Positions 1 to 14,921 of a stretch of 24,246 nucleotides of DNA are shown here, piece after piece; position 1 is the stretch's first letter, and each line of letters begins with the position of its first letter. A program made the position numbers and the translations under genes. Under the pieces are notes generated by a model, which saw only the letters and a program-made list of their open reading frames with translations, did no database searches and was not told the origin of the DNA. Where the stretch lies: positions 1 through 24,246 of IMG/VR virus record IMGVR_UViG_3300010883_000453, one strand, 5' to 3'. This stretch comes from a virus.

Positions 1-54
1 CGCACTTTTATGGAACCTTCCGGGTCCCAGAAAAGCAATGCCCAACATCCTTAA
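1..54 (+). CDS. Possible 3' end of an upstream gene (portal or other head gene), partial
   Basis: The first frame is open from the window edge to a TAA at 52-54, with a C-terminus reading MEPSGSQKSNAQHP. It would overlap the proposed start of the giant gene (ATG 38), as other genes here overlap. In head modules of this kind a portal gene usually sits at this place, but 17 codons cannot identify a product. The giant-gene frame is also open to the window edge, so this fragment could equally be an untranslated shadow. Confidence 0.25.
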   Translation, partial: RTFMEPSGSQKSNAQHP

Positions 55-3000
55 AAAGAGATTCTTGTTTGACGATGTTGTGGAAACGAAGGGGGGGTAT
101 CTGGCCGGGACCAAGAGAGTAACGACGCAGACCAAGTTGATGAAGCATCACAGGACACTGATGTATGAGGACCTGTATGCAGATACCGTTACCGATGCAC
201 TTAACGTCACAAAGGATAGTGTAGATGAAGTCATGGCGGCGACGGCAGAAAGAGGGAACGTGTTCGTCTCCAAGCTGGATGCCTACTATGTGCCGACTGT
301 AACCAACCCTGAGTTTGCCAAGGAACTGGATTCCTTGTTAATCCCGTGGGACAACGCAACTGGGACTCGTAGCCTCGGTAAAGTGGTAGCTCTTACCGGG
401 GAGCAGGGAAGGGAGCTACTAAACTCTAATATCGGTGCAATGCGGTGGAGTGGCGAGCATGCGCAATTCATAACCCCTAGAGAAACGTTGCGAAAGGCTA
501 TGTCCAAGGCTCTTAGGAATACCGATGCAGCGTCTTTGCAGATTTCACTACCGACAAGAAGGGCTCTTGGGGTGGATGCTGTATTGCCAAGGCCGGTTAC
601 TGCGAAACTCACAACCGGTGTTAAAACACCGCCTACTGTTGGGAGCCTCAATCCCATTACAGGAATTGATGACGGGTCAGCAGTGGTGTTTTCAAAGGTT
701 ACCCCGTTGGTCGAAGGCACGCCAGAAGGATTGAGGATTCTGGATGGGCTTGAGGCCCACCAAAGCATTATCCACGCACCCCGATGGCCGAGGCCCACCC
801 CATTATCAGGTACATCAGGTGGATGGTGGGATGAGTACTCAAGATATTCAAAGGCTCAGGCGGTGGGGGAGCCAACTGATTTCTTGAAGGTCCAGAAGAA
901 GACGATGGACGGGTTTAACTGGTCAACGATAGACAATCATATAACGGCCTCAGATATAGACCGCCCTGCGGTATCCAAGGTAAAGATTGCCCCTGCCCCC
1001 AAGGGACACAAGCGTCTGTACAACGCCAGCACAGTAGACTGGGATGTAGATGATTACCTTGAGCCGCATGTTAGTGACTGGGTTAAGGAGGTAGCTGGCG
1101 GGGCTGGGGATGTGCCAGTAGAGGATATCACCGCACCGCTGGTTTTTATGGCTGAAGAGCCCGGCGACTGGATGACAAGCATTGTTTCTCGCAAACTAGG
1201 AAAGCCGAATAAGGCTGTGACCCTTGAAGATATCCGTGACCACGGGCGACTGAATATAATTGATGCAGATATCGACGATGCGATTTATAAGGTAGGTGAT
1301 TTTTCTGAGACTGGGGAGGTTATTGATTTAACCGGCTCTCGGCTGAAGTTCCATGAGACGGCGCTATACAGTGAGGGGGATGTGTATTCCGGGGCCGGTG
1401 CCCTTACTGATATGCCAGTGGGACCAGAGCCCCATGATTTTATAACCGGGAATGTGATGGACGTGAAAGCATCACTTACCGGGGATGACCTGATTGTATT
1501 TTTACGCTCGGAAGGCGTCGATTTACCTGACGGGGTAGTGGCTGCCCCATCGTCTGCGGCCCCCCCTAAAGTTTTCATCCCTGATTCCTCTACGAGGAAA
1601 GGTATTTCAGGTAAGGCTTACATGCTCGACAACCCAGAAAAGTATGCGTCTGGCCGAGGGGCGAAAGACCTAGCTATCTATGATGATATTCGGTTACCAG
1701 CGGATGGGGACTTACTCGTCGCACAACATACGACAAGCGAGAAATGGATAACCACGTTTTTAGATGAGGGCGTGGATGGGACCATACCACCACCTGACCG
1801 CAATCTAGGGAAGCTGACCATTACCGAATCTGGGGTCACGGTTAATACAAAAATAGATACCCCCGGCTTATACGTTACGCATTCCTCTGACATTACTTCT
1901 AAACCGCGAGTGGTGATTGTTACGCGGGCCGATGAGGTTATATCAAGCGTAGAGTCTATAGGGGCCGGGAGAAAGACTGGGTACGGGGCCTTGTATAACG
2001 GCGATGCCCTTTTGAATAAGCATATACCGGCTTCTGATATTGCTGGGAAAGTCCTTTACAGCGATGCTCAGTGGAAGGCTACTGGACAGGGGTGGTCGTA
2101 CACCCCCAATCCCAAAAGCCCTTACGGCAAGATGTTTCAGCTAAATGCACGTAATGAAGTTGTGCTTGCGCCCGCGCCTGTACCCGCGCCTGTACCCGCG
2201 CCCGCGCTTGCGCCCGCGAAGATAGATAAGTTCTTTCTTAGAACTGCTGATGACGCCATAGTTGTTAGAGAAGAGATTGAAGCTATTGAAGATGCTTGGT
2301 ACGGGACTCCAGCCAGTTTTGGAGAGCGGTATCCAGCACGTGCGCTATCTGACGATGTACCCGGATACACTGCTTACCGTAAGGAGCTGCAAACGGCTGC
2401 AAGAGAGGAGCTGGGAGAAGAGTTTACTGTATACCGTCTATGGGACAAGAATCATTTTGAAGCGTGGAAAGGCGGTGAGGACATAGGCCCGCTTTCTACA
2501 ACTCTCAGTAAGAAGAGGGCCGAGAGTTTTAGGAAGATGCCAGCTAATAAGGGGAAGGATTTAGTAGTCACTGAAATACGGGCCACCCCAGACGCTATGG
2601 TAATGCGTGGCATTGAGGGTGAGCTGGAGGTAGTCCTTGATTTTAATGAGCTAAGTTTTGCTGACTCGATGAAGGGTATGGGGCCGCTATCGGACATAGC
2701 GCCTACCCCTGCACCCGCGCTAGGGTCTGCGCGTCTGAAGTACTTAGACGACACGCTACCATTCTTTCTCGACAATGCGTCTGAGACTCTACGAGACACA
2801 AACAAGGTTTTACGTGAGCTGGCTGAAGGTGGGTTACCACGCGGGGCACCAATCCCCACAACAGTTAATGTTGCAGACGACATCGTAGCTGCTGCGTCTG
2901 GGAAGCCGGGGGCCACGTCACAGGTCTTTGCCGATAACGTTGATATGCTGGACTTTCTAACCCAGACAACGACGTTGAAGGAAGATGTGTTTTTGTACCG

Positions 3001-6000
3001 GTCAGTAAGTCCGAGTGTAGTAGAGAAGACGTTCGGCAAATCTTTATCCATAGGACAGGTTGCCGGGAATGACGGGTTCATCCAATGGTCGGCAACGTCT
3101 AGCGCCCCCGCACGCAAGGCCATGCGCCATAAGCCCGAGAGGAGAACCGTGCTTCGTATTCGTGCAGCCAAAGGCACTAAGGGGTTTTACTACGGGGGCG
3201 AGAACAAACAGTTCATCCTACCGCGTGGGACTACGTACCGGTTATCCAATGTAGAGGAGAATGTACTGGTTGGGTACCACCCAACTAAGGGCGGTAAGAT
3301 GAATTTATCGCGCCCCATATATTCCCGCGTGGTTACTGTGGAGTCGATTGCTAAAGTTGATGGGGCTGTTGTTGCGCCTGCAAAGACGGTGACCCATAGA
3401 GTGCCCCGTGGAAGTTCGTTAACGGCTATGGATGAGTTTGCGCGGAGCACAGATATAGAGTCCGTGAATGTGTTTACGGATACCACTTCTTCGGTAGGGG
3501 TTCATTCGGTAGTCGTGCAAAACGATATAACCAATTTATCAACCGGGGCTAGTAACGTGTACTCGAAATCTATGGCGGCTGGGATATCAGACCAACTGAC
3601 GGATGAGGCTTACAAGGCTGCCCGTAACGATACTCGTTTACTGCAATCGTATGCGGGAGCGAAGAGGGAACTGATTACCGATAAGTACATGCAGAAGGTA
3701 ACAGACGTGCAGCAAAAACTGGACGCGGTGTTTACCTCCCCCACCACTTCCAATTATCTCCCTGACCGCGTGTATACGTATGCGGCTATACAGGAGGGCC
3801 AAGACAAGGCGTGGAAGGGGATGCAGGTAGGAGATGCTTACAGTTCCCCCGGATATACGTCGTCTACTCTTGGCCCGCACACAGTTTTAGAGTCGGCTGG
3901 AATAGAGGCCAGTACTTTTGAATCTGGCAAATATGTAAAACGTACTATTGCCGGGGTGCCGTACAGCGTTGTTAAGGTGCCTGCCGCGACCCAGCCCACC
4001 ATTGTTCGGTACGTACTTCCTGAAGGCCAGCGAGCCCTTACGTCTTACGATAATCTAAATGTGATGTTGCCACGCAACACAACGTTTCGAGTACTGGGTA
4101 AAGAGCTGGATGTGCCCGTGTATCAGTGGACTGATGATGTTGGGGAGCTTCGCACCGTTACCGGGCGGGTTATTACGGTGGAGCCGATTAGCTTAAAAAA
4201 CATGGCCCCGACAGGTGCTGTTAAGGGGGCGGCAACAATACCCTTAAAGTTAGTCCCGCCTCCGCAGATGCTTCCGACGATACCTGTTTCCCCCACTTCA
4301 AAGCTGGGGAAGAAGGCTTCTAAACTTGCCAGCCAAGTCCCAAAAGCTGGTAAAGCTAAGGGGCGGGTGCGGGGGTATGGGGGCCTTAGCTCAGAAAGGT
4401 ACATGCACCCAATCAACGACCCTCTTAATCAGTCCGCAACGAAGGCGGCGTCAAAGATAGGGGCTGACTTAGAAATTAAGTACACACTGGTGGAAGAAGC
4501 CGGGTCATCTGGCCCCGCCTCATTCCGACCAGTTCTGGAGCAGACAGGCAGGAAAGTTAAAACCACTGGTGGGAGGAGGTTAAGTAAGTTTGAGCCAGCA
4601 GAACAGACCTACCTAGCGACATTGGACGATGCTAGGGATATACCCGTCAGCCTCCACTTAGATGACGTGATGCCGGTAGGCCGCTTAGGCGGTGGTGAAG
4701 GGTTCGAGTCGTTCATCGAGAAGGAATTTCAAGAGCGTATAGACACCCCTTGGGCTCATCGCGGGCGAACGACGGAAAAAATTAAGGGGGCTCGGGGGAG
4801 TATATCTAAGGTAGATGAGGTGTTTCGTGGAACGTTGTCGGCGGATGCGTTAACGGAAGCAGAGCTTTCTATGCACGCTGGTGCTAAAACAGTGTTTGAT
4901 AACGTACCCACCTTGCCGCAGGAGCTTGTCGTATACCGTGCGATGCGGGCATCTGAGTTGTTGGAGGAAGGTGCAAGGGACGTAGCCGGGGCAGTCGGTA
5001 GGGCTTACGCAAACCCAGCCCCCACGTACCTTACGACAGACATACGCCGCGCATCTAGGCATGCGGCTAGTATGCGTAAGGCAACACCGGATGCGGAAGT
5101 AGTCTTGGTGCAACTGAGATTAGAGGAGGGGGCCAAGGTTCTTTATATGGGTGATGGTAACGTGGTGGCTTCGCCCGGAACCGTGTTCCAGCTAGACGAA
5201 TTATTGCCAAAGGTAAATACCTTTGAAAGCACACTGGCTAATTCGACCAAGCCTGCTGGGTCTTTCGGCAGCTTTCAGGAGGCTAATCTTCTTCGATACA
5301 AGAGGTCTTTGTTAGACCCGGCCACGCCTTTTAGTGACGACGTATTTACAGCGTCAGCCTTTGCTAGACCCGATGAGGGTATGTGGGATTTCCCTGTTTT
5401 AAGTGGCAGGCAAGTCCCCACTACGCAAAGTGTAAACACGTCGGCCCGTCTTGGTAAGGGAACGAAACTGGGTATTGAGTGGGCGGACCACTCGTTCGGG
5501 GCACCAATACGGGGGGCATCGACTTCCGTTTCGGACATTATTGTAATGCCTTCCATAAGAGAGCCGGTACGGAATGTTACGGCAGAGGCAAGTACTTTTG
5601 ATGACGGTATTAAGCATTTCTATAGAAAGTATCGGGACGAGACGGATGTAAATTCGTGGTTGCGGGAGGTGCCTTCGGTAGACACTTCCAGTGATATCTA
5701 TGGGCTTGGTCAGGTTTCAACAGCGGACGATTTTATATCTAGCCACTCACTTATTGATAGAGACGAGATAGAGGCAGTGCGGTCGTGGTATACGGCTAAA
5801 GAAAATTCTAGTGAGGCGCTTTCTGTTTACATGCATGGAATGGCTGATGGCAAGAACGCAACTCTTATAGATGACGTTGCTAGGGGTATCGAGAAACCGG
5901 GGTTGGGTGCGCTAGAACTTCAAGCACGGGAAAAGTGGATACCTGCGTTGGACGAGTTGATAGAAACGTCGGAGGGGGCGTTTCCTAGACCGTACAGCAG

Positions 6001-9000
6001 GACCGCCGGGCGGTCAGCGGTGGACGACGTGTGGCCTGCGACTTACGGAGGCTCTGCCAGCAAGGGCACTATGGGGGTGGGAGATGTACATATAAATAGA
6101 ACGTACATGCACACCACGGTGCATCCACACAAAGCTGTTTTAGATGCCATAGAGAACAAGACACCGACGTTAACGAAGGACGGTACACGGGCGGTATACG
6201 AAGATGTAACGCTGACGAGGGTGTACATAAAGAAGGGGGACAAGGTTATACAAGTCGGCAGTCAGGAGGCCGAGGAGTTTTTACATGGAAGGGGGGCTGC
6301 ATTCCATGTTACTGAGGTTGAGAGTAACGCAATCTTAATGGAAGTCTCGAACATTCAGAGCAAAACAGAGGGCATAGATACAGCAGCGTGGTTCCCTACC
6401 CTAGACCCTAAACGTGCGGCGAAGGTGGACACGGTTTTTGTGCGTGGCGATATCATTACACTAGAAAGTGTAGCCCCTCAGCAAGTAGAAGCGGCGGCTG
6501 AAATAGGTGCGCGTCGTGGGGGTGTTATTGTGCCCGTAGACACCGGGGGCTACATAGCCGCTGATAACTCGTACTCTGCTGCGTGGAAAACGGCGTTGCG
6601 TGAACGAAAAGAGGCTGGGGTCTACGATGGTCGCTACGCTATAGAGGATATAGTTACGGACACTTACAAGGATTCGTATGCGGGTAATGGGCTCACGTCA
6701 CAATATGCATCACGTCCTCTCGACAAAGCAGCGGCTGCAAAATATGTCGAGGGGCCTCAAAGTTTTGTGCCGAACAAGGTGAAATTCGACCATGAGGCTG
6801 CGGTCAAGCGGGCGCGGGCTGCTGATGCGGGAAAGAAGCTCCCGAAAAAAGCTGTAGGTCATTATACCGGTATTGGGTCCGGGGAGATGAATGAGATTTC
6901 TAGGCTGTTGGATGAAGCCGAGAGATTACCGTCGTCTAGGCGTATGATTAGAGAGTCAGGGGCATGGGACCCGGACGTTGGGCTGGCAGAGACACTGTAT
7001 CCAAAAGGTGGTAAGTTTGATACCTACGCTGCAAACAGAATCATAAAGGCATTCAATGATGGGACGCTAAATTTCAAGTGGGGGGATGCGGAGTGGGCTC
7101 CCCGTGGCCAAAAGCTAGATGGCTGGTTAAGAATGGGGTTAACTGCTAGGGCGGGTAGTGGCACCACGCTTCGCATGCAACTAAGCCTACAACAAGCCCT
7201 TAAATACAAGTCATCGCCATTACCAGAAGATGTTATTTTGATGCGCGGCATCAAGGGGGCTCATCCGGGTAGGATGGGCGGGTTTAAGGAAGGGGAGCTG
7301 TTCACTAATTGGACAACCGGTAGTTGGACTGGTGACCCCAACCTAGCCTCTTCTTTTGGGAGGCTCGGTGGCCGTACAGTAGACGACATTGATGACCTGT
7401 TGAACCTTGGAAAAGTAACCTCCGATGGTAGCCGTGTATATTCCCCAGCCATCGTAGCGGCAAAGAAGGAGCGTGGCATTATGCTTCGGGTTAAGTATCC
7501 TAAAGGTGCTCCCTATACCACGGCCCCAGATTTTTTTGAGGAGGAATTTATTCTAGGGCCGTCTACGTTTAGAATTAAAAAGGCTACATACCGTGGGCAC
7601 GGCGAGGCGTCGTTCCATGATGTAAACTGGGAATTGAGAGGGGAAAGCAAGGCGCTTCTTCCAGAAAATGCTAAAGCCTTTGCGGATGGTCAGTGGGGTA
7701 AGCTCGGATTGGCGGACGATGAAATTGCCGAGCTTGACCAATTGCAGAATTTTCGTGACTGGCTGACCAAGGCATCGCAACTTCCTGATGACGATATACT
7801 GTGGGTAACAACGCCGTACACACGTTCCGATTTTGTTGAGACGTTGGATGCCCTTACGGATTCGGCTAAATATCGGGCAGCGGTAGAGGAGGCGGCTGGG
7901 GCGGGGCGCGAGTTTTTAGAGGGCATGGCTAGTAGGGCTAAGTTGGCTGGGACTATACGACCGTTTCAGCCCCCGCTTACACGGTGGCCGGTATTGAGCC
8001 AGATACAAGTCGGAGAGGGGAGCGTATACAGCGTACGCCACAGAGTAAGGGTCACTATCCCTTACGAGAGTATACCAGCACGGGTGCTGGATTTAGAGTA
8101 TGTCCCCACCGCCGCCGCTGCGGAAGCCATTGCCCCAGTACAGACACAGGCGGCGCTGGCAGAGGCGGCGGTCAAACTGGTCGATGACGCCGATGTCACG
8201 TTCAAACGTATTGCACGGGTTACCGATGAGGATTTTTTGCCGAAGACATGGCTGTCTGATGTTGACCCTGATGATGCCCGGTCTGTATTTACGGATACAG
8301 ATATAGGGGCGCGAAAAATATTTGTAACTGAAGTCAAGCCTGCCGACGTTGCCGCCCATATAAAAAATGGGGGGTCCATGCATGTTTCTGATAGCCGCAA
8401 AGTTGGCGCTTTGGTTACAGATAAGGGCACCGTGGGGAATCTGTTTAACAGCAATGGACCGGGGGCTGGGCGTGAGATGCTGCTCGACCTTATCGAAAAT
8501 GGAGATGCAAAAACTCTTGATTGTTTTGATGGGTTTTTGCCAGAGTACTACAAGCAATTCGGTTTCGTTGAGTACAAGAGGGTAAAGTGGAATGACGCAT
8601 ATGCCCCTAAGAAATGGGACTATGGTAAGCATGGCCGCCCAGATATAGTGTATATGAAATACGCAGGAGGAAATCGTGCCACAGTCAGACAAAGATTTAT
8701 TGCGGGGCAATCTCTTACATCAGACGCACAATCAGCTTTCGAGAGAGGGGCAGCTATCTCTCATCAAGCAGAGATTCGAGCATCGTTTAAGGGAGGAGCG
8801 GGGGGAGAAATGGCTAAACGAAAATCGCTTGCTGCTGGAAGAGCAGTGGAAAGGAATGATAAATCTAGGCTTATTCTGAACCAGTTGGCCGAACCCACGG
8901 ATAAACGGTCCCCCGCGTGGGCCATACGGTTTGGTGATGAGGGCAACGAGTTTTGGTTAGGTACTAGCGATGTCGGCCCAGACTTGAGGAGGGCCACCAC

Positions 9001-10072
9001 TGACCGGGCGGCAGTTGCCAATACTGTTGAGACGTTGACTACGGTACAAGGCTTTAACTCAGTGGATGAGGTTATCGAGTGGGCTGTTAGTCGAGGCGCT
9101 AAAAGGGAGTCGGTTACAGCCGTGTCGCGTTCGCTAGAGGCGAAGTATTCCCGCGCCCGTTTAATTGACCCTAGTCTTCGTAGCGGGGCGTCAGCGGAGG
9201 TTCTTGTTCAAGAGGCTAAAAGGGCGGCTAAAGCCGTTAAGAAGAAGGACGCACAGAGGGTGTTTTTAGATTTGCTGGAGCGCCCTGATATTACGCGAAA
9301 TATTGATGGGGTAACCTCCCGCCACAGGTTGTCCAAAACCGTTCGGAAGCAGCTCTTTCTTGACTCGGTAGACGATATGACAGAACTCCATAGGTCAGAA
9401 AGTTTTTTACCAGACATTGTTACAAAGCCCTACAGCGTAGTCGAGGTAGAGCTGCCTACTCCGGTGGCCCGTGCGACCGGGACTGTATTTGATTCATCCA
9501 CCCTAGTTATTACCCCGCCTAGTAACGTTGCGAAAAAGGTTATCCCGGTAATTAAGCCGACACCCGGTTCTTCCCAAATAGATGATACCGCCAGTGCTTT
9601 TTACGGCAAGGGGAGCGGGGAAAAGGTGACCTTCAGGTATGTTCGTAACCCAGAACCGGCTCCTAATTTTGGAAGTTTATACGGGCAAGATGTTGAACCG
9701 GCAGGGATGTACGTCAATGAGGCGACTTCGGGCCATGTGCCGCCCGGCTACGACTCCGGTACCCTGACGTTTAAGTCACCCCTTTATATTGAGGCGACGG
9801 GGGCCTACCAAGATAAATCGAGCTGGAAGCATGTATTGTCGAGCCGATATAGAACGACTGCCGATTCTGTTGGGACGACGTTATCGCGGAGAATCGTACA
9901 AGATGGGTATGACGGGGTAGTGGTAATTGAGCCAGCTACTGCAAAACGCGGAAGTTACGTAAGTGAGATTGTTGATTTGCGGTCGTTTGTGACCAAGAGC
10001 GAGGCGTTGCTAGAAGACGTGCTCCAGAATTCTCGGTACTTGCATGGGGTTGGTGGGGCGTCTTTATCGTAA
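38..10072 (+). CDS. Giant multi-domain ADP-ribosyltransferase-like phage protein (3344 aa)
   Basis: A single frame of 3344 codons, roughly 360 kDa. Read along its length: an unrecognised N-terminal region (1-310); a possible ART-like domain (about 320-500); a HTTS...GLYVT ART-like segment (about 552-680); an Ala/Pro linker (711-727); ART modules at about 735-880, 895-1110, 1170-1385, 1590-1725, 1850-2150 and 2290-2520; a GNAT-like segment (about 2730-2875); a helical region; and a C-terminal ART-like domain ending GYDG...E-IVDLRSF (about 3182-3322). ART enzymes move ADP-ribose from NAD+ to target proteins. Only two modules keep a clear R / STT / ExE set. The stop shares its last base with the next ATG. 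ATG 38 has only a weak ribosome site and the frame is open upstream, so the true start may lie outside the window. The position before the protease and capsid genes suggests a virion-associated, injected protein, but this is inference. It may also be read in parts (see 8676-8879). Confidence 0.88.
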   Translation: MPNILKKRFLFDDVVETKGGYLAGTKRVTTQTKLMKHHRTLMYEDLYADTVTDALNVTKDSVDEVMAATAERGNVFVSKLDAYYVPTVTNPEFAKELDSLLIPWDNATGTRSLGKVVALTGEQGRELLNSNIGAMRWSGEHAQFITPRETLRKAMSKALRNTDAASLQISLPTRRALGVDAVLPRPVTAKLTTGVKTPPTVGSLNPITGIDDGSAVVFSKVTPLVEGTPEGLRILDGLEAHQSIIHAPRWPRPTPLSGTSGGWWDEYSRYSKAQAVGEPTDFLKVQKKTMDGFNWSTIDNHITASDIDRPAVSKVKIAPAPKGHKRLYNASTVDWDVDDYLEPHVSDWVKEVAGGAGDVPVEDITAPLVFMAEEPGDWMTSIVSRKLGKPNKAVTLEDIRDHGRLNIIDADIDDAIYKVGDFSETGEVIDLTGSRLKFHETALYSEGDVYSGAGALTDMPVGPEPHDFITGNVMDVKASLTGDDLIVFLRSEGVDLPDGVVAAPSSAAPPKVFIPDSSTRKGISGKAYMLDNPEKYASGRGAKDLAIYDDIRLPADGDLLVAQHTTSEKWITTFLDEGVDGTIPPPDRNLGKLTITESGVTVNTKIDTPGLYVTHSSDITSKPRVVIVTRADEVISSVESIGAGRKTGYGALYNGDALLNKHIPASDIAGKVLYSDAQWKATGQGWSYTPNPKSPYGKMFQLNARNEVVLAPAPVPAPVPAPALAPAKIDKFFLRTADDAIVVREEIEAIEDAWYGTPASFGERYPARALSDDVPGYTAYRKELQTAAREELGEEFTVYRLWDKNHFEAWKGGEDIGPLSTTLSKKRAESFRKMPANKGKDLVVTEIRATPDAMVMRGIEGELEVVLDFNELSFADSMKGMGPLSDIAPTPAPALGSARLKYLDDTLPFFLDNASETLRDTNKVLRELAEGGLPRGAPIPTTVNVADDIVAAASGKPGATSQVFADNVDMLDFLTQTTTLKEDVFLYRSVSPSVVEKTFGKSLSIGQVAGNDGFIQWSATSSAPARKAMRHKPERRTVLRIRAAKGTKGFYYGGENKQFILPRGTTYRLSNVEENVLVGYHPTKGGKMNLSRPIYSRVVTVESIAKVDGAVVAPAKTVTHRVPRGSSLTAMDEFARSTDIESVNVFTDTTSSVGVHSVVVQNDITNLSTGASNVYSKSMAAGISDQLTDEAYKAARNDTRLLQSYAGAKRELITDKYMQKVTDVQQKLDAVFTSPTTSNYLPDRVYTYAAIQEGQDKAWKGMQVGDAYSSPGYTSSTLGPHTVLESAGIEASTFESGKYVKRTIAGVPYSVVKVPAATQPTIVRYVLPEGQRALTSYDNLNVMLPRNTTFRVLGKELDVPVYQWTDDVGELRTVTGRVITVEPISLKNMAPTGAVKGAATIPLKLVPPPQMLPTIPVSPTSKLGKKASKLASQVPKAGKAKGRVRGYGGLSSERYMHPINDPLNQSATKAASKIGADLEIKYTLVEEAGSSGPASFRPVLEQTGRKVKTTGGRRLSKFEPAEQTYLATLDDARDIPVSLHLDDVMPVGRLGGGEGFESFIEKEFQERIDTPWAHRGRTTEKIKGARGSISKVDEVFRGTLSADALTEAELSMHAGAKTVFDNVPTLPQELVVYRAMRASELLEEGARDVAGAVGRAYANPAPTYLTTDIRRASRHAASMRKATPDAEVVLVQLRLEEGAKVLYMGDGNVVASPGTVFQLDELLPKVNTFESTLANSTKPAGSFGSFQEANLLRYKRSLLDPATPFSDDVFTASAFARPDEGMWDFPVLSGRQVPTTQSVNTSARLGKGTKLGIEWADHSFGAPIRGASTSVSDIIVMPSIREPVRNVTAEASTFDDGIKHFYRKYRDETDVNSWLREVPSVDTSSDIYGLGQVSTADDFISSHSLIDRDEIEAVRSWYTAKENSSEALSVYMHGMADGKNATLIDDVARGIEKPGLGALELQAREKWIPALDELIETSEGAFPRPYSRTAGRSAVDDVWPATYGGSASKGTMGVGDVHINRTYMHTTVHPHKAVLDAIENKTPTLTKDGTRAVYEDVTLTRVYIKKGDKVIQVGSQEAEEFLHGRGAAFHVTEVESNAILMEVSNIQSKTEGIDTAAWFPTLDPKRAAKVDTVFVRGDIITLESVAPQQVEAAAEIGARRGGVIVPVDTGGYIAADNSYSAAWKTALRERKEAGVYDGRYAIEDIVTDTYKDSYAGNGLTSQYASRPLDKAAAAKYVEGPQSFVPNKVKFDHEAAVKRARAADAGKKLPKKAVGHYTGIGSGEMNEISRLLDEAERLPSSRRMIRESGAWDPDVGLAETLYPKGGKFDTYAANRIIKAFNDGTLNFKWGDAEWAPRGQKLDGWLRMGLTARAGSGTTLRMQLSLQQALKYKSSPLPEDVILMRGIKGAHPGRMGGFKEGELFTNWTTGSWTGDPNLASSFGRLGGRTVDDIDDLLNLGKVTSDGSRVYSPAIVAAKKERGIMLRVKYPKGAPYTTAPDFFEEEFILGPSTFRIKKATYRGHGEASFHDVNWELRGESKALLPENAKAFADGQWGKLGLADDEIAELDQLQNFRDWLTKASQLPDDDILWVTTPYTRSDFVETLDALTDSAKYRAAVEEAAGAGREFLEGMASRAKLAGTIRPFQPPLTRWPVLSQIQVGEGSVYSVRHRVRVTIPYESIPARVLDLEYVPTAAAAEAIAPVQTQAALAEAAVKLVDDADVTFKRIARVTDEDFLPKTWLSDVDPDDARSVFTDTDIGARKIFVTEVKPADVAAHIKNGGSMHVSDSRKVGALVTDKGTVGNLFNSNGPGAGREMLLDLIENGDAKTLDCFDGFLPEYYKQFGFVEYKRVKWNDAYAPKKWDYGKHGRPDIVYMKYAGGNRATVRQRFIAGQSLTSDAQSAFERGAAISHQAEIRASFKGGAGGEMAKRKSLAAGRAVERNDKSRLILNQLAEPTDKRSPAWAIRFGDEGNEFWLGTSDVGPDLRRATTDRAAVANTVETLTTVQGFNSVDEVIEWAVSRGAKRESVTAVSRSLEAKYSRARLIDPSLRSGASAEVLVQEAKRAAKAVKKKDAQRVFLDLLERPDITRNIDGVTSRHRLSKTVRKQLFLDSVDDMTELHRSESFLPDIVTKPYSVVEVELPTPVARATGTVFDSSTLVITPPSNVAKKVIPVIKPTPGSSQIDDTASAFYGKGSGEKVTFRYVRNPEPAPNFGSLYGQDVEPAGMYVNEATSGHVPPGYDSGTLTFKSPLYIEATGAYQDKSSWKHVLSSRYRTTADSVGTTLSRRIVQDGYDGVVVIEPATAKRGSYVSEIVDLRSFVTKSEALLEDVLQNSRYLHGVGGASLS
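1690..2075 (+). other. Possible ART-like domain (HTTS / GLYVT type) in the giant protein
   Basis: Residues about 552-680. The segment starts with VAQHTTSEK (H564), continues with FLDEGVDG, and has GLYVTHSS about 50 residues later, before a mixed alpha/beta end. An early His-x-Thr and a later Gly-Leu-Tyr recall the H-Y type of ART fold (PARP-like, often written HGT...Y). No convincing third catalytic residue was found, so the fold is a guess from pattern. The preceding segment (residues about 320-500, around PLVFMAEEPGDW) may be a related domain but was not recognised. Confidence 0.35.
2168..2218 (+). repeat. Ala/Pro-rich linker encoded by a tandem 12-base repeat
   Basis: The 12-base unit CCCGCGCCTGTA occurs twice in tandem and is followed by degenerate GCGCCC units. 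It encodes APAPVPAPVPAPALAPA (residues 711-727). It separates the N-terminal unknown region from the first clear ART module. Similar shorter linkers occur at residues 318-322 (APAPK), about 888-896 (PTPAPALG) and 1113-1116 (APAK). Such sequence usually forms an extended, flexible spacer. Confidence 0.8.
2240..2680 (+). other. ART module 1 of the giant protein, catalytic residues intact
   Basis: Residues about 735-880. A helical N-lobe with GYTAYRKEL leads into FTVYRLW (R800), then LSTTLS (S820-T-T822), then EGELEVVLD (E862-L-E864). This is the order and spacing of the R-S-E class of ART enzymes (ExoS, VIP2 and C3 relatives): Arg and Ser-Thr-x contact NAD+, and the last Glu is catalytic. The usual LPRGT after ExE is replaced by LDFNE. 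This is one of the two modules most likely to be active. The target protein is unknown. Confidence 0.75.
2720..3365 (+). other. ART module 2 of the giant protein, catalytic Glu apparently replaced
   Basis: Residues about 895-1110. VFLYRSV supplies R988 and IQWSATSS (1018-1022) matches the STS strand. FILPRGTTYRL, typical of the strand after the ExE motif, is preceded by ENKQ. If the LPRG strand is aligned, Q1058 sits at the catalytic Glu position and N1056 at the first Glu, although a one-residue shift would bring in E1055. It ends with RVVTVESI, which recurs as RVITVEPI after the next module. Confidence 0.7.
3545..4195 (+). other. ART module 3 of the giant protein, pseudo-enzyme
   Basis: Residues about 1170-1385. 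It is closely related to module 2: SSPGYTSST (1272-1277) fits the STS strand, and VMLPRNTTFRV matches FILPRGTTYRL. The Arg strand reads VYTYA, so Arg is replaced by Thr. The ExE position reads N1339-L-N1341. With both Glu and the Arg missing it is unlikely to transfer ADP-ribose and may serve for binding or structure. Confidence 0.7.
4805..5215 (+). other. ART module 4 of the giant protein, ExE lost
   Basis: Residues about 1590-1725. LVVYRAM gives R1634 and PTYLTTD (T1666-T1667) the STS-like strand. The last strand, NVVASPGTVFQL, aligns with EVLLPRGTKFRV-type sequences, but the ExE position reads D1706-G-N1708. The NAD-contact residues survive in part while the catalytic Glu is Asn, so it is probably inactive as a transferase. 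Confidence 0.65.
5585..6490 (+). other. ART-like module 5 of the giant protein, divergent
   Basis: Residues about 1850-2150. The helical start (IDRDEIEAVRSWYTAKENSS) resembles the N-lobe of ART toxins. RTYMHTTVH (T2026-T2027) fits the STS strand. EAEEFLHGRGAAFHV (E2077-A-E-E2080) fits the ExE strand with catalytic Glu at 2080 but Ala two residues before it. It ends with DIITLESV, like the RV-TVE-I endings of modules 2 and 3. The Arg strand is unclear (PRPYSR is one candidate). Confidence 0.5.
6900..7605 (+). other. ART module 6 of the giant protein, catalytic residues intact
   Basis: Residues about 2290-2520. VILMRGIKG provides R2403, TNWTTGSWT (2426-2429) the STS strand, and FFEEEFILGPSTFRI the ExE strand with E2501-E-E2503. 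The spacing between the STS and ExE strands is longer than in module 1, with a GGRTVDDIDD loop between them. With module 1 it is the best candidate for an active transferase in the chain. Confidence 0.7.
8225..8665 (+). other. GNAT-like acetyltransferase segment of the giant protein
   Basis: Residues about 2730-2875. NSNGPGAGREMLLDLIENG resembles the acetyl-CoA pyrophosphate-binding loop and helix of GNAT enzymes (Q/R-x-x-G-x-G/A). TLDCFDGFLPEYYKQFGFVEYKRVKWND matches the strand-helix-YxxxGF ending common to the fold. Acetyl transfer is the family reaction. Whether this copy binds acetyl-CoA, and its substrate, cannot be told. It ends right where the nested AGGAGG site lies. Confidence 0.55.
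8665..8670 (+). promoter_or_regulatory. Strong Shine-Dalgarno inside the giant gene
   Basis: AGGAGG, five bases before GTG 8676. Among the purine-rich AGGAGG-like hexamers I could find inside the giant gene, this is the only one that is both a perfect match and well placed before an out-of-frame start with a long open frame. Confidence 0.55.
8676..8879 (+). CDS. Nested out-of-frame small gene, unknown function (67 aa)
   Basis: GTG start five bases after AGGAGG, ending at TGA 8877-8879, in a different frame from the surrounding 3344-codon gene. The product (starting MPQSDKDLLRGNLLHQ, ending EEQWKGMINLGLF) is charged and leucine-rich with even heptad-like spacing, as expected of a real helical protein. 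Over the same bases the giant frame reads an Ala/Gly/Ser/Gln/Arg-rich run (residues 2880-2948) unlike its flanks, which is how an off-frame reading of a real gene often looks. A further in-frame ATG for the giant frame occurs at 8810 after a purine-rich stretch, so a downstream product 8810-10072 (420 aa) is possible. No family was recognised. Confidence 0.5.
   Translation: MPQSDKDLLRGNLLHQTHNQLSREGQLSLIKQRFEHRLREERGEKWLNENRLLLEEQWKGMINLGLF
9575..10010 (+). other. C-terminal ART-like domain of the giant protein (GYDG type)
   Basis: Residues about 3182-3325. FRYVRNPE (R3200), AGMYVNEATS, LTFKSPLYIEA, IVQDGYDGVVV (around 3290) and EIVDLRSF (E3310) appear in that order. This order recalls small ART-like domains of large phage and mobile-element polyproteins, where a GYDGI strand precedes a final Glu-containing strand. 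The assignment rests on pattern alone. Confidence 0.45.
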
Positions 10073-10365
10073 TGCCGCGCATACTAAAAAAGGATTTGCA
10101 GGTAATTGCACAGAGGGTATCCGGGTCTGGTCGCCCCCTAAGCGGGGAGATAGGGGCCTTCTTGGTTGGGTGGTCACCGGAGAATAGAGCCCAGACTTCA
10201 GCTACGTACATTGTCCGGTTGGATGGTGACACGGTTGTCGCAGGCCCACGGTCCTATGAATCGGTAGTTAAGTTTGGGTACTGGGGTCCGGTTACCAGCC
10301 ACGCCGTAATACCAGATGTAATCGGTAGGGCGTGGCGATTTATTAACAGGGGGGCACCAGTTTAA
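10072..10365 (+). CDS. Hypothetical protein (97 aa), coupled to the giant gene
   Basis: Its ATG shares one base with the giant gene's TAA (TAATG), so translation is probably coupled to it. The product begins MPRILKKDLQ and has a compact mixed fold with beta-like stretches (GAFLVGWSP, TYIVRLDGDTVV, FGYWGPVTSHAV) and no signal peptide or membrane segment. Its first seven residues resemble those of the giant protein (MPNILKK). No family was recognised. Close coupling to the giant gene and distance from the capsid genes make a partner of the giant protein (chaperone, packaging or silencing factor) possible, which is a guess from context. Confidence 0.75.
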   Translation: MPRILKKDLQVIAQRVSGSGRPLSGEIGAFLVGWSPENRAQTSATYIVRLDGDTVVAGPRSYESVVKFGYWGPVTSHAVIPDVIGRAWRFINRGAPV

Positions 10366-10646
10366 TGCCACCCTTCCCTGCCCCCAGTTATCGTCTCTAT
10401 GGGGACCTTCCGGTTAAGTGCGAGCCCGATGAAGTCAGCGGGGTTCGGTTCATGGTTTATAACTGGGGGACCGGGGGGTTTGAGCGCAATGACCGCTTAG
10501 GTGTCTGTGTCTATCTCGGACTAGACCCCTATGCTGACCCTGAAGATGCGTCCGCACAGGACGGGTTTGATACCACTGTTTTGTCTGCACGTAGTTTTAA
10601 CAGTTACGTTGCTAACTTAAAAAAATTAAAGGGCCAAGGCACCTAG
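10365..10646 (+). CDS. Hypothetical protein (93 aa)
   Basis: Starts at a TAATG overlap with the previous gene and is followed by a 35-base gap. The product (MPPFPAPSYRLYGDLPVK...) has two Cys (VKCEPDE and GVCVYLG), an acidic stretch DPYADPEDASAQDG, and a basic end KKLKGQGT. No signal peptide, membrane span or known motif was seen. The tight three-gene coupling from the giant gene suggests one transcriptional and functional unit. Function unknown. Confidence 0.72.
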   Translation: MPPFPAPSYRLYGDLPVKCEPDEVSGVRFMVYNWGTGGFERNDRLGVCVYLGLDPYADPEDASAQDGFDTTVLSARSFNSYVANLKKLKGQGT

Positions 10647-10665: not shown

Positions 10666-10683
10666 GTATGCTAGAGTAGGTAT
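10666..10683 (+). promoter_or_regulatory. Promoter-like or processing element before the protease gene
   Basis: GTATGCTAGAGTAGG lies in one of the few true gaps (10647-10681). A very similar GTATGCTACAGTATGG occurs in the gap before the tail tube gene (17459-17474). TATGCT could be a -10 box, but no good -35 lies 16-18 bases upstream. It could also be an operator or an RNA cleavage site. Confidence 0.3.
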
Positions 10684-12337
10684 GCCGACGACTGAGACAC
10701 ATGCGCACAAGGCCGATATGGTTGCGAGTGACTTGGTTGCCGGGGGGCGATTGAATGACGAACAACGCCCATCTACTACAAGGAGGAACGCCCCTGTGCC
10801 GATAGAGGTATGCACTACAGATACTAACGTAAAGGGGTGGCGTTGGGGGTCTTCCGGTAAGTGTTACACGGGCGCGGGCGCACGCGCACAGGCACGCGCA
10901 CAAGGGGCGGCGCAAATGGCATCTGAGAGCCGGGGAGTAAAAAAGGCTGCCCCACTAGCTGCTCTTTTAGTTTTAGGGCTGATTGCCGAGAAGGTGGTTC
11001 TCTATGCCGTCCGTTTTTATGAGACTATGCACGTGGGGAAAGTAGCGTCTCACTTGGGGCATAAGTTGAGTTCCAACGACTCTAGGCCAGCAGTCAAGGA
11101 CCTATTCTCTACGATTGAGTCAGGGGGGGAGGTTACTCGGCGTCAAGTTGGTAGAGTGATGCGGGGTATGACCCTGCCCCAGATAAACCGTGTGTTTGGC
11201 GGTCTTCCAGAGGCCCGTAGGATGCTTAAAGCCTTGGGCGAATTAGAGAAGAGTCGAAAGGGTTTCATAGCGCAGGGTGATATGGGACCCAGCAGGTACC
11301 CGAAACCTAATATACCCGTGGAGCCGGGTGCCCTTTTGGCGTATGTCCAGAACTCTGTATGGAAGCAGGAAACTGAACGCAGTGATGTTGAGGTGCATAA
11401 GATAGCTCCTTTGTTAATGCACGCCATGCATAAACTTGTGAAACTTGCGGAGATAGCGTTAGTAGCGTTCTTCACACACGAACAGATAGAGCGGGGGCGT
11501 AAATATTTTCACGAGGACAGCGAAAAACAGGCGGATAAACGCAAGCGGAGGGAGGTGCGTGAGGACCTACGCACCCTGTCATTGAAAGAAATAAAAAAAC
11601 GCTATGGGAGTGTGCGTGAATTCAAGGCGCTGATGTCCCACCTTAAACAGGTGCGCTCAGAGTTTAGCTTGGGCCTACCAGAAAAAGAGTTCTACGCGCA
11701 AATAATGCGCAGGGCTCCTAAGTCCCAGTATACGACGGTCAGCAAAGATGAGGTCATTACGGCTACGATGTCCGAGGTTAAAAAGACGGATAGTGAATTA
11801 CGTATTGCGTGGGGGGAGGTCTACGCACCGAATGTGCCAGATTCACAGGGTGACTACATGACCGCTGATGAGATACGAAAAATGGCCCACCGGTTTATGG
11901 AGAACGGGCGTCAGCATAAGGTGGACTGTAACCACGATAACAAGGAGGCCCACACCAACGTGGTGGTGGAGAGCTTTATCGCCCGTAAGGATGACCAGAC
12001 GTTTATACCTGAGTCGTGGGTGGTGGGGGTGCATGTCCCTGACCAATCTATCTGGGAGTCGATTAAGAAAGGGGAGATAAACGGATTTTCGTTACAGGCC
12101 CGCGCAATGCGTAGCGCCACTACTTCTAAGCTCGAAGTTCTGCGTGAACCGTCCGGTATGGTGTTGGCAGCACATGGACACACGCACTCTTTTAACGTAT
12201 CGTTTAGTGACGAAGGTAGGTTTATTGGCGGGGAGACATCATTTGACGAAGGGCATGCGCATGCGATTAACGGTGGAACCGTTACAGAACCGGCTGGGGC
12301 AACCAGCCACATACATAGGTATAGTGTAATAGGATGA
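10682..12337 (+). CDS. Prohead protease, XkdF-like, with His-rich tail (551 aa)
   Basis: Residues 376-480 match the XkdF family of phage prohead serine proteases: VYAPNVPDSQGDYMTADEI (from V380), VDCNHDN (H418), ESWVVGVHV and GEINGFSLQ (S470). H418 and S470 are the likely catalytic pair. The enzyme would process scaffold and head proteins in the procapsid. Before it come a GWRWGSSGKCYTG motif (about 52-64) seen in other phage head proteins, a hydrophobic helix (about 90-112), and a long basic helical region. After it, from residue 498, come HGHTHSF, GHAHAI and SHIHRY, a metal-binding-like His repeat. The first 28 residues copy the major capsid N-terminus. ATG 10682 has a poor ribosome site, whereas in-frame GTG 10796 (V39) sits nine bases after AAGGAGG, so a 513-residue form is a serious alternative. 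Confidence 0.85.
   Translation: MPTTETHAHKADMVASDLVAGGRLNDEQRPSTTRRNAPVPIEVCTTDTNVKGWRWGSSGKCYTGAGARAQARAQGAAQMASESRGVKKAAPLAALLVLGLIAEKVVLYAVRFYETMHVGKVASHLGHKLSSNDSRPAVKDLFSTIESGGEVTRRQVGRVMRGMTLPQINRVFGGLPEARRMLKALGELEKSRKGFIAQGDMGPSRYPKPNIPVEPGALLAYVQNSVWKQETERSDVEVHKIAPLLMHAMHKLVKLAEIALVAFFTHEQIERGRKYFHEDSEKQADKRKRREVREDLRTLSLKEIKKRYGSVREFKALMSHLKQVRSEFSLGLPEKEFYAQIMRRAPKSQYTTVSKDEVITATMSEVKKTDSELRIAWGEVYAPNVPDSQGDYMTADEIRKMAHRFMENGRQHKVDCNHDNKEAHTNVVVESFIARKDDQTFIPESWVVGVHVPDQSIWESIKKGEINGFSLQARAMRSATTSKLEVLREPSGMVLAAHGHTHSFNVSFSDEGRFIGGETSFDEGHAHAINGGTVTEPAGATSHIHRYSVIG
10780..10786 (+). promoter_or_regulatory. Strong Shine-Dalgarno for an alternative protease start
   Basis: AAGGAGG, nine bases before the in-frame GTG at 10796. 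It is much better than anything before ATG 10682. It may mean that the protease proper begins MPIEVCTTDTNVKGW and that the upstream 38 codons are an extension. Confidence 0.5.
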
Positions 12338-13827
12338 CAAAGAAAGCTACTGTAATGGTTGACGCCAGCGAATTATTTGATGCGGATGTTGAGTTTGTGT
12401 CCCTTGTTAATAAGGGTGCGAATCGCCTCCCGTTTCGGGTTTTGAAAACAGAGGGCGGTGGGGCAGATACCCAGCCCTCTGCGGATGCATGGATAGAGGC
12501 TATTACTGTTGTTAAGGGGGAGGGTCACGATGAGCTGATGGAGTTGATGGGGCAGTGTAATTTGAACACCGAGGACCCGCTTACAGTCGATGGCAGTGGT
12601 GCTGATATATATATGTACATGCAACCCATCGAAGGCGCTGGCCCAGACGAATTGGCCGATTTGCCGCGTACCATACTGAAGGTGGATGACCGTACTTCAT
12701 TTGTTATTGCCAGCAATGGCCCGAACCTCCAGCAGTTAATGGATGAAGTAGACCTTGAGAAAGAGGTCAAGTCTCGTAAATCGGATGAGGTAGAGAAAAC
12801 CTACGACCGTGATGAAGGTCGCCCGACAGCAAATGTTGATGTGCCGTATGAATATGGCTCAAGTTTTTTCGAGAATGTAGGCGAGGCCGGGTTTACCCCC
12901 GGATTACACTTAGCTAGTGCGATACTGGTTAAAACTATAAATGCAGTGATGCACTCGTCACCCACTGCTAAGGCCGCTCATAAAGGGATTGCGGAAGCGG
13001 TAGGGGCGTATAAGAACTACGTAACTAAGCTGGCCTCTATGGTTCCATCTACAACATTTCAATTGGAGGCTCTCATGGTAAAAACAGATAGTGAAGTAAC
13101 CGATGGACCCGTTGACCCGATTAACCCCTTTGACCCGGATACCTCGTTCGGTCAAACCCTCGCGTTTGCCATAGACAAACTTATAGATTCCGGTATCCTA
13201 AGTATTAACGCGGAGGTTATGAAGACCTCCGATGAGGAGTCTGCGGACTCCGATGGAGAGGGCACTGTGGAATCACAAGTTGAAACAGACGTTACGAAAA
13301 CCGATGGCCAGTTGGAGAATACGGATTCCCCCACCCTTGCAGCAGCAGCGGTGGAAGAATCTACAGATACCACAGAAGTCGTGGCGAGTAGTGAGGGTGA
13401 AGTAAACGATACGACCCAAGCAGTGTCCCAAAGTAGTACCGAAGACGATAAGGCGGAGGCAGTTGAAAACTCGACTGCTGATGACGTTTCGGCTTCAGAC
13501 GAAGACACCTCCATTACCGTTGATGCTAACATGCAAATGTTAATGGATGCGGTGGCTTCTCAGATATCTGAAAAGATAGGGCCGCTAACCGTAGCGGTGC
13601 AGAAGTTGCAGGAAAGTCACGACACTGTTGCAGAACGTATGACCACCGTAGAAGTGGAGGCTGCGCAGGCTACTGAAGCTGTTAAAGGGACAGTAGTCGG
13701 CTCTTATACCCCCACAGATGCGCGGACAGCACTGGATGCGTCGGTTGAGAAATCTGACCACCCTATGCTTGATACCGGCTACAGCTCCCGCGACACCCGT
13801 CGTCGGCGGCGTGGCATGGTTATTTAA
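12334..13827 (+). CDS. Head protein with XkdF-associated N-terminus and scaffold-like C-terminus (497 aa)
   Basis: Starts in an ATGA overlap with the protease stop. Residues 20-37 (EFVSLVNKGANRLPFRVLK) match the VSLVxxGANRxPFxxLK motif that commonly accompanies XkdF-type proteases in phage head operons. The middle is ordinary globular sequence. Residues about 290-390 are strongly acidic and Ser/Thr/Glu-rich, about 396-453 form a probable coiled coil (MQMLMDAVASQISEKIG...), and the end is basic (RDTRRRRRGMVI). Acidic plus coiled coil plus basic end, directly before the major capsid gene, is the usual look of a scaffolding protein, which guides capsid assembly and is then cleaved or expelled. 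An internal start at 13075 may give a separate scaffold. Confidence 0.75.
   Translation: MTKKATVMVDASELFDADVEFVSLVNKGANRLPFRVLKTEGGGADTQPSADAWIEAITVVKGEGHDELMELMGQCNLNTEDPLTVDGSGADIYMYMQPIEGAGPDELADLPRTILKVDDRTSFVIASNGPNLQQLMDEVDLEKEVKSRKSDEVEKTYDRDEGRPTANVDVPYEYGSSFFENVGEAGFTPGLHLASAILVKTINAVMHSSPTAKAAHKGIAEAVGAYKNYVTKLASMVPSTTFQLEALMVKTDSEVTDGPVDPINPFDPDTSFGQTLAFAIDKLIDSGILSINAEVMKTSDEESADSDGEGTVESQVETDVTKTDGQLENTDSPTLAAAAVEESTDTTEVVASSEGEVNDTTQAVSQSSTEDDKAEAVENSTADDVSASDEDTSITVDANMQMLMDAVASQISEKIGPLTVAVQKLQESHDTVAERMTTVEVEAAQATEAVKGTVVGSYTPTDARTALDASVEKSDHPMLDTGYSSRDTRRRRRGMVI
13065..13069 (+). promoter_or_regulatory. Internal Shine-Dalgarno in the scaffold gene
   Basis: GGAGG, five bases before an in-frame ATG at 13075. 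Motif and spacing are both good for initiation inside a coding region. Confidence 0.5.
13075..13827 (+). CDS. Possible internal-start scaffolding protein (250 aa)
   Basis: This is the in-frame C-terminal half of the 497-residue gene, from M248 (MVKTDSEVTDG). It contains exactly the acidic stretch, the coiled coil and the basic end expected of a scaffold and leaves the globular N-terminal half out. Lambda makes Nu3 from an internal start in protease gene C in the same manner. The site GGAGG-N5-ATG supports initiation, but only protein mapping could show that both forms exist. Confidence 0.45.
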   Translation: MVKTDSEVTDGPVDPINPFDPDTSFGQTLAFAIDKLIDSGILSINAEVMKTSDEESADSDGEGTVESQVETDVTKTDGQLENTDSPTLAAAAVEESTDTTEVVASSEGEVNDTTQAVSQSSTEDDKAEAVENSTADDVSASDEDTSITVDANMQMLMDAVASQISEKIGPLTVAVQKLQESHDTVAERMTTVEVEAAQATEAVKGTVVGSYTPTDARTALDASVEKSDHPMLDTGYSSRDTRRRRRGMVI

Positions 13828-13850: not shown

Positions 13851-14921
13851 ATGCCTTCAAATGAAAATATAATCCAGAAAGCCGATATGGTCCTTGCGGA
13901 CCTGTCGGGCGGCACAAAGGGAGGGCTGCTCAATGACGAGCAAGCCGCTGCTTTTGTCCGTAAACTTATTGACCAGCCGACTTTGCTGCGGCAGATTCGC
14001 ACGGTGGAAATGAATTCCCCGACTCGCCAGATAAACAAAATCGGTTTTGGGTCGCGCATTATGAAAGCTGGCCCGGCAGCGTTGACTACCGGCGGTGTGG
14101 CGCTTGCCGCAGGTGACCGAAGTTCTGCTGTTACCGAGCAGGTGACCCTGACGACTAAAGAGGTAATGGCTGAAGTCCATCTCCCCTATGACGTTATCGA
14201 GGACAACATTGAGCGCGGCAACACGTCGGCTGGCGGCCCTACTGGTACAGGCGGCCCCAGAGCTGGGGGCATACAGGATACAATCCTGTCGCTGATAGCC
14301 GAGAGAGCTGCCCTTGACCTTGAGGAGCTGGCTCTTCTCGGGGACACCGCCAGCGGTGACGCCTATCTGGCTTTGCAGGATGGGTTCTTGGAGCAGGCGA
14401 AGGACAATGGCGTTGCTGATAGCACGCAGATTGACTTTACGGCCAACGCCGAGGGTTACATCCCGAACACGTCAACGGCGTATGCTGGTACCACCGGTAC
14501 TATCTATGACCTCGGTGAGATAAATAAAGAGCTGTTCCGCAAAGCCTTGCAGGCAATGCCGACGCAGTACTTGCGAAACCGGGCGGACATGAAGTTCTTC
14601 TTGTCGATAGACCAAGAAATCAACTACCGAAATTCGCTTGGTAACCGCGTGGACGCCCTCGGTGACCGCATGGTTGAAGGCAATGATGCGGTCCGGGCTT
14701 TCGGAGTACCGGTGGAGCCGGTGGCTCTGATGCCAGCGGCTAACGGGTTGTTCTGTGACCCGCTGAACCTGATAATGGGTGTGCAGCGCAAGCTCACATT
14801 TGAGTACGACAAGGATATACGCGCACGGGAGTTTATCATTGTCGTGAGTAGCCGGGTGGCGTTTGCAATCGAAGAGGTTGACGCTACGATTTACATGAAG
14901 GGAATTGGGGTTAGCGCCTAG
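13851..14921 (+). CDS. Major capsid protein, HK97-like fold (356 aa)
   Basis: The N-terminal arm reads QKADMVLADL...GLLNDEQAAAF. It is followed by RQIRTVEMNSPTRQINKIGFGSR, a beta region ending LTTKEVMAEVHLPYDVIEDNIERG, a long helix (LSLIAERAALDLEELALLGD), and a C-terminal part with YLRNRADMKFFLSIDQEINYRNSLGNR and FGVPVEPVALMP...REFIIVVSSRVAFAIEEVDATIYMKG. This is the order of N-arm, E-loop, spine helix and A/P domains in HK97-type capsid proteins, and the length is normal. It lies after protease and scaffold and before connector genes. A strong Shine-Dalgarno and a terminator behind it fit high expression. No clear protease cleavage site was identified. Confidence 0.9.
   Translation: MPSNENIIQKADMVLADLSGGTKGGLLNDEQAAAFVRKLIDQPTLLRQIRTVEMNSPTRQINKIGFGSRIMKAGPAALTTGGVALAAGDRSSAVTEQVTLTTKEVMAEVHLPYDVIEDNIERGNTSAGGPTGTGGPRAGGIQDTILSLIAERAALDLEELALLGDTASGDAYLALQDGFLEQAKDNGVADSTQIDFTANAEGYIPNTSTAYAGTTGTIYDLGEINKELFRKALQAMPTQYLRNRADMKFFLSIDQEINYRNSLGNRVDALGDRMVEGNDAVRAFGVPVEPVALMPAANGLFCDPLNLIMGVQRKLTFEYDKDIRAREFIIVVSSRVAFAIEEVDATIYMKGIGVSA

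Follow-up and report, generated by a model that had tools for sequence, protein, structure and literature searches.

The frame of an XkdF-type protease opens with a copy of the N-terminal arm of the phage's own major capsid protein (MCP) in a virus record of 24,246 bases, called here the window. Related peptides mark other head proteins in relatives of this virus. The similarity is specific to MCP residues 1–32, is conserved at the protein level, and in the strongest cases tends to follow the MCP of the same genome. With a probability of about 0.6, the start of the protease frame serves as a signal for docking in the procapsid, by imitation of the N-arm of the MCP. The motif is not specific to proteases and, judged from the sequences which carry it, has the appearance of an address tag by which proteins are loaded into new heads.

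The motif pair in the window

Features of the region are listed in Table 1. The protease ORF starts with MPTTETHAHKADMVASDLVAGG-RLNDEQ (in a longer reading of the same start, MPTTETHAHKADMVASDLVAGGRLNDEQ), the MCP ORF with MPSNENIIQKADMVLADLSGGTKGGLLNDEQ. Aligned from Met1, the two N-termini are identical at 17 of 28 aligned codons, with one 3-residue gap. The local BLOSUM62 score is 74; shuffling the whole protease 2000 times gave at most 63, and shuffling residues 1–60 alone, 5000 times, at most 46. When a six-frame translation of 2.1 Mb was searched with an HMM built from the N-termini of 119 other MCPs, the protease copy was recovered at E 1.2e-4. The first-pass annotation, which had described a copy of the capsid N-terminus, shared DNA words and divergence past the copy, is confirmed in these three respects: the words GCCGATATGGT (10712–10722 and 13881–13891) and AATGACGA[A/G]CAA (10754–10765 and 13932–13943) are exact, and the similarity stops at EQ, residue 28 of the protease frame. 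Codon differences between the two segments number 8, 9 and 16 at first, second and third positions; because of this distribution, the match is viewed as a protein-level match between diverged DNA segments, not as a DNA copy. Locus L001 is nearly the same virus as the window (4 differences in 13,653 shared bases, none in the motif).

Table 1. Features of the protease–capsid region of the window
Feature	Position	Strand	Remarks
A_AAA_AAA run	10619–10625	+	near the end of the upstream 93-aa ORF (10365–10646); phase suits a -1 shift to the motif frame
XkdF-protease ORF, 551 aa	10682–12337	+	motif, SGKCY module, helical region, XkdF protease domain
MCP-N-arm-like motif, aa 1–28 of the protease frame	10682–10765	+	core KADMVASDLVAGGRLNDEQ at 10709–10765
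Shine-Dalgarno AAGGAGG for the internal start	10780–10786	+	
Internal GTG start and SGKCY module, aa 39–62	10796–10867	+	VPIEVCTTDTNVKGWRWGSSGKCY
Peptidase_S78_2 (XkdF) domain, aa 363–477	11768–12112	+	E 1.5e-29
497-aa ORF between protease and MCP, probable scaffold	12334–13827	+	no motif copy
Major capsid protein, HK97 fold, phrog_1623	13851–14921	+	profile E 9.5e-91 and model
MCP N-arm, aa 1–31, cognate of the motif	13851–13943	+	core KADMVLADLSGGTKGGLLNDEQ at 13878–13943

The protease domain (PF14550) matched its profile at 102.9 bits, the gathering cut-off being 24. The MCP is XkdG-like, and its AlphaFold2 model (pLDDT 81.2) finds HK97-fold capsids as top PDB structural matches, P2-family capsids being the best; a sequence search found no related solved structure. 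The N-arm is modelled as a helix (residues 4–19), a Gly loop, and the start of a helix spanning residues 29–41. The motif consensus, K-[ADE]-D-x4-[DQ]-L-x3-GG-x-L-x-P-[ED]-Q, corresponds to the near-invariant N-arm of the MCP family, in which KAD[LIM]xxxDLxxxGGxLxPEQ is N-terminal and hardly varies. Rhodobacter phage RcZahn is a cultivable relative with the motif in its MCP. Accessible papers and record notes gave nothing usable on the N-terminal processing of the related MCPs of phiH1, phiCh1, psiM2 and VHS1.

The motif was found neither in the probable scaffold nor in the 3344-aa ORF located at 38–10072. The former starts with FDADVEFVSLVNKGANRLPFRVLK (12334–12460), a sequence reminiscent of how XkdF proteins of the PBSX type begin (in phage PBP180, VSYVDKAANQKKFFLMK; L002 and L003 are further examples), as though segments of protease and scaffold had been shuffled. 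The 3344-aa ORF has no Pfam match at E 0.1. It matches phrog_2563 (E 3e-15), shows a weak ADP-ribosyltransferase similarity (phrog_3895, E 0.008), and is probably a polyvalent effector.

Motif carriers in related genomes

A profile of 119 MCP N-termini, not including that of the window, was compared with the six-frame translation of 188 loci (2.1 Mb). Beyond MCPs, it matched the protease frame of the window and several unrelated proteins; in all, non-capsid head proteins were matched by an MCP-only HMM in about 16 independent relatives. Core-profile scores were 29.7 bits in L138/L058, 29.1 in L121, 23.9 and 20.3 in L030 and L032, 20.6 in L050/L115 and 19.8 in the window, the best reversed or shuffled decoys reaching 10.5 and 8.9 bits. 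A loose regular expression of the motif hit 22 real frames, but only 1 after reversal and 2 after shuffling. Chance similarity is ruled out by the shuffles and by these decoys. In a sliding control along 17 MCP segments, strong non-MCP matches were obtained for residues 1–32 only (27.4 bits; at most 13.5 elsewhere), which excludes that any conserved MCP stretch gives such matches.

Wider scans added a copy in L198/L199 (17.3 bits) and weaker ones in L211, L216, L191 and L190; several copies are individually weak. Further copies came from whole-record scans, in which the model included known copies and the new finds were G037, G038, G025 and W02 only. The G025/L192 copy resides in a protein encoded about 51 kb away from its own MCP gene. 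The match in W02 (Rhizobium phage TM16) and a minus-strand match in G039 are too weak to count. In the former phage (RHph_TM16, MN988459.1 85446–85490, L189) the sequence LTLSDLAENGGKLPD, part of a hypothetical protein of 733 aa encoded upstream of the DNA polymerase, is a weak possible copy in a named phage. Of 107 distinct genomes in which the MCP gene is preceded by at least 5 kb, about 19 show an extra copy, so most relatives seem to do without a copy, or to use an unrecognised form. Across MCPs and carriers the invariant positions are D6, L12 and G16 only, and the terminal E/Q varies among carriers.

Non-MCP carriers are small SGKCY-type proteins, MuF minor head proteins, often with Acb1, an Acb1-ADP-ribosyltransferase protein, and one other protease fusion. 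The L138 carrier is a 100-aa protein (MEKKADITVGDLATGGGLRSPEQVGGAMPIQRC...GWQWGNSGKCY), the gene of which directly follows the portal gene. It has the same architecture as the window frame, the motif and a linker being followed by a [MV]PI..C..GW.WG.SGKCY module. The module, which in L138 matches phrog_31267, occurs without the motif in L057/L154. In L147, L198, L191 and L169 the carriers are MuF-like minor head proteins, in which an anti-CBASS Acb1 domain is located just after the motif. In L192 (1128–2600, minus strand) the order is Acb1-motif-ADP-ribosyltransferase. The Acb1 fusions of these five loci (PF23474, E 1e-31 to 1e-38) are candidates for virion-delivered anti-CBASS. Other carriers are a MuF protein (L065) that also has zeta-type kinase and NUDIX domains, and a topoisomerase IB/ART-like polyvalent protein (L127). 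MuF (PF04233) matches in L147, L198, L191, L065 and L169 have E values of 2.6e-4 to 1.4e-3 and do not reach the gathering score; minor-head PHROGs are matched by L198 as well.

The motif is found at the ORF start in the window and in L138, with an uncertain start codon in both, and is internal in L121, L030, L050 and the MuF proteins. Carrier genes mostly reside near the portal gene. The carriers are proteins of head or virion type, their packaging being suggested by the MuF/effector context. MuF proteins fused to enzymes of such kinds have been proposed to be packaged and injected (PMC5512222). In a model of a MuF-Acb1 protein (whole-model pLDDT 63) the motif falls in a low-confidence linker (pLDDT about 30) predicted to be disordered; in the alignment of these proteins it is conserved as much as the MuF domain (0.70 vs 0.49 just downstream).

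XkdF proteases rarely carry the motif. Among 245 protease frames, repeats included, it marks two lineages only, those of the window and of L121, both gene fusions; in L121 it lies inside a second, independent fusion with an XkdF protease. Outside these lineages, its carriers are of the SGKCY or MuF type, and it is thus no general feature of XkdF proteases. The first-pass annotation had suggested a survey of XkdF proteases for capsid-like N-termini; in nearly all relatives the protease domain lacks the motif, which in related phages recurs in other head proteins.

Codon changes and the pairing of copies with MCPs were analyzed at the five loci with an MCP at hand (window, L138, L121, L032 and L115). 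Copy and own MCP are identical at 73 of 114 aligned residues, 47 of the 73 being encoded by different codons. Differences at first, second and third codon positions number 31, 27 and 74 over the 114 codons, so that 74 of 132 are at third positions. Because the DNA diverged while the peptide was kept, these copies are not recent, and the peptide is, or long was, translated. When copies of the five strongest loci were compared with 113 distinct MCP N-termini, the own MCP ranked 3, 2, 5, 2 and 1. The true copy-MCP pairing is the best of 120 permutations, uncorrected for kinship between gene clusters, and common ancestry of whole clusters could contribute to the match. MuF copies, of the KDDxSxxQL type, match their own MCP less closely than the five loci do (moderate match, ranks 17–70 for most).

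Translation start and alternative readings

Translation of the protease may begin at either of two sites, a doubt already raised in the first-pass annotation. Shine-Dalgarno strength is -3.7 kcal/mol at ATG 10682 and -11.4 at GTG 10796, where AAGGAGG is found at 9 nt; in L138 too, a strong Shine-Dalgarno precedes an internal start downstream of the motif. A shorter, motif-free product from GTG 10796 is likely. Initiation at 10682 is favoured because the similarity between copy and MCP begins at the start codon itself (MP[TS]..E). The same strong internal sites, with weak or no sites at the motif start in both genomes, may alternatively denote that the motif is translated as a C-terminal extension of the upstream gene, and the protease from GTG 10796 or further in. 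In the window, the A_AAA_AAA heptamer, one of three A7 runs, could serve as an alternative expression route by -1 frameshift, since its phase is suitable and the stop of the upstream ORF follows some 20 nt later. In L138 (4097–4190) the motif frame continues the portal frame right after the UGA stop, which would have to be read through, and the module further down is equipped with an AGGAGG and an ATG of its own. Such a route of expression is improbable: the alignment from the start codon fits initiation at 10682, RNA downstream of the heptamer has no significant stimulatory structure (z -0.93), weak Shine-Dalgarno sites are also found at several other window genes, and the upstream genes differ between the two genomes. 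The strong start downstream of the copy would suit also a functionless scar, left by a chance duplication of the MCP gene 5' end upstream of the true protease start, as would the lack of a copy next to the protease domain in nearly all relatives. A recombination scar had been proposed in the first-pass annotation; it is not borne out, silent sites being largely diverged and amino acids kept. Codons changed at half or more of the identical residues, the independent copies in other proteins of other genomes, and the specificity for MCP residues 1–32 similarly leave a functionless scar hardly credible. A recent DNA duplication is ruled out by the codon-position bias at the five loci.

Two further explanations assign the motif a different function. 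It may mainly serve as a site that the XkdF maturation protease recognises and cuts, common to the MCP, the protease and the packaged proteins. In known phages one enzyme processes MCP, protease and internal proteins, with precedents in P2 gpO (gpN after residue 31), T4 gp21 (internal proteins) and SPN3US gp245 (many head proteins), P1 being named as well. The MCP motif in the window ends at residue 31, near the 31/32 cut of P2 gpN, and several copies lie between domains of multi-domain proteins. A pure cleavage site would be odd, because the motif is found in none of 224 frames located between protease and MCP (best score 1.5 bits), which are probable scaffolds and an expected main substrate. 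Moreover, constancy is highest at D6, L12 and G16, which are scattered along the motif, and the terminal E/Q varies. Cleavage as the main function is unlikely, but it can be reconciled with docking, if the signal is docked and then cut. Alternatively, the motif may bind a partner other than the MCP (such as portal, scaffold or host chaperonin), within a shared route for folding or assembly clients. The N-terminus of T4 gp23 is reported to direct proteins to GroEL, in a paper listed among the references of PMC10052503, and the carrier genes mostly lie close to the portal gene. A phage-encoded partner would account more easily for the cognate match to the own MCP. Binding to a partner other than the MCP is very improbable.

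Proposed docking at the procapsid

The preferred reading remains a docking signal imitating the MCP N-arm. Before maturation, the N-arm helix of the MCP would tuck into a site of the inner procapsid face, like helix alpha0 of P2 gpN under the neighbouring subunit. A low-copy protein endowed with the N-arm peptide could fill a few of the MCP N-arm sites, or the scaffold site reading them, and would thereby be built into the procapsid in few copies. In the window the peptide would tether the fused XkdF protease together with the SGKCY module; in relatives it would tether MuF-type proteins and fused effectors such as Acb1. It would probably be released when the N-arm is remodelled or cut in maturation. 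We infer both the binding site (the place of the MCP N-arm, or a scaffold surface) and the incorporation of the bearer. The first-pass annotation had envisaged a shared signal bringing the protease into the procapsid. A shared signal is favoured by recurrence in other head proteins, by protein-level conservation, and by the strongest cases tracking their own MCP; a role general to XkdF proteases is not. Several observations speak against docking: the stronger ribosome-binding site of the window and of L138 follows the motif instead of preceding it, a copy was found in only about 19 of 107 genomes and none in the 3344-aa ORF, and MuF copies match their own MCP only moderately, several of them scoring 6–12 bits individually.

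Comparable systems are known from other phages. The CTS of T4 is N-terminal, measures about 10 residues, and is removed by gp21. It is a short peptide common to several head-packaged proteins (IPI-IPIII, Alt), as the motif would be, and has been proposed to direct them to the procapsid. In contrast to the CTS, the motif measures about 20 residues, is often internal, and coincides with the N-arm of the MCP itself. The CTS of the internal proteins is a precedent for head targeting, and in P1 the first 30 residues (N30) of DarB suffice to load a reporter into the head, no common consensus being identified by BLAST among Dar proteins (PMC9024508). DarB is akin to the carriers, as about 30 residues direct an anti-restriction effector into the head, but the motif has a consensus, equal to the MCP N-terminus. 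In the P2 procapsid, helix alpha0 (residues 1–14) of gpN sits below the adjacent subunit, and the protease gpO removes the first 31 residues of gpN by a cut at 31/32 (PMC7552001). Like the MCP, P2 gpN has the HK97 fold and a short N-arm helix on the inside of the procapsid, and the closest structural matches to the MCP are capsids of the P2 family. In contrast, no copy of the gpN arm was recognised in gpO in the P4 procapsid study (PMC7552001), and the protease families differ. The carriers include MuF proteins fused to 2H/Acb1, ART and other enzymes, as the known MuF and polyvalent head effectors; no MCP-like motif was found in the accessible part of the account of the latter (PMC5512222).

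A broader proposal is more tentative, and somewhat less likely than not to hold: a lineage of HK97-fold phages may have turned mimicry of its capsid N-arm into a portable loading code. A peptide that fills the MCP N-arm site of the procapsid, and co-evolves with it, would be borne by small head proteins, protease modules and injected effectors against host defence (Acb1, ADP-ribosyltransferases), the cargo thereby being addressed to the own virion. The selection of proteins for the head is understood in few tailed phages, and in P1 a consensus signal was not found. The motif is a candidate signal searchable by sequence, with a clear origin in the arm of the shell protein, residing in a large phage family and attached to a protease as to anti-CBASS and ADP-ribosyltransferase effectors. 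No published description of MCP N-arm copies on head proteins was found in the accessible literature, mostly outside subscription journals. If the docking reading is correct, packaged effectors might be predicted from sequence, the recruitment of a maturation protease would be explained, and a portable tag for loading proteins into phage heads would be at hand.

The C-termini of MuF proteins (e.g. L198, L147, L082) feature a conserved tail, GPNAPKKKRKxQ...DYDDIxPDSSxxAFDxGxxNDxxAPLDR, in a low-confidence region, which is perhaps another short docking element.
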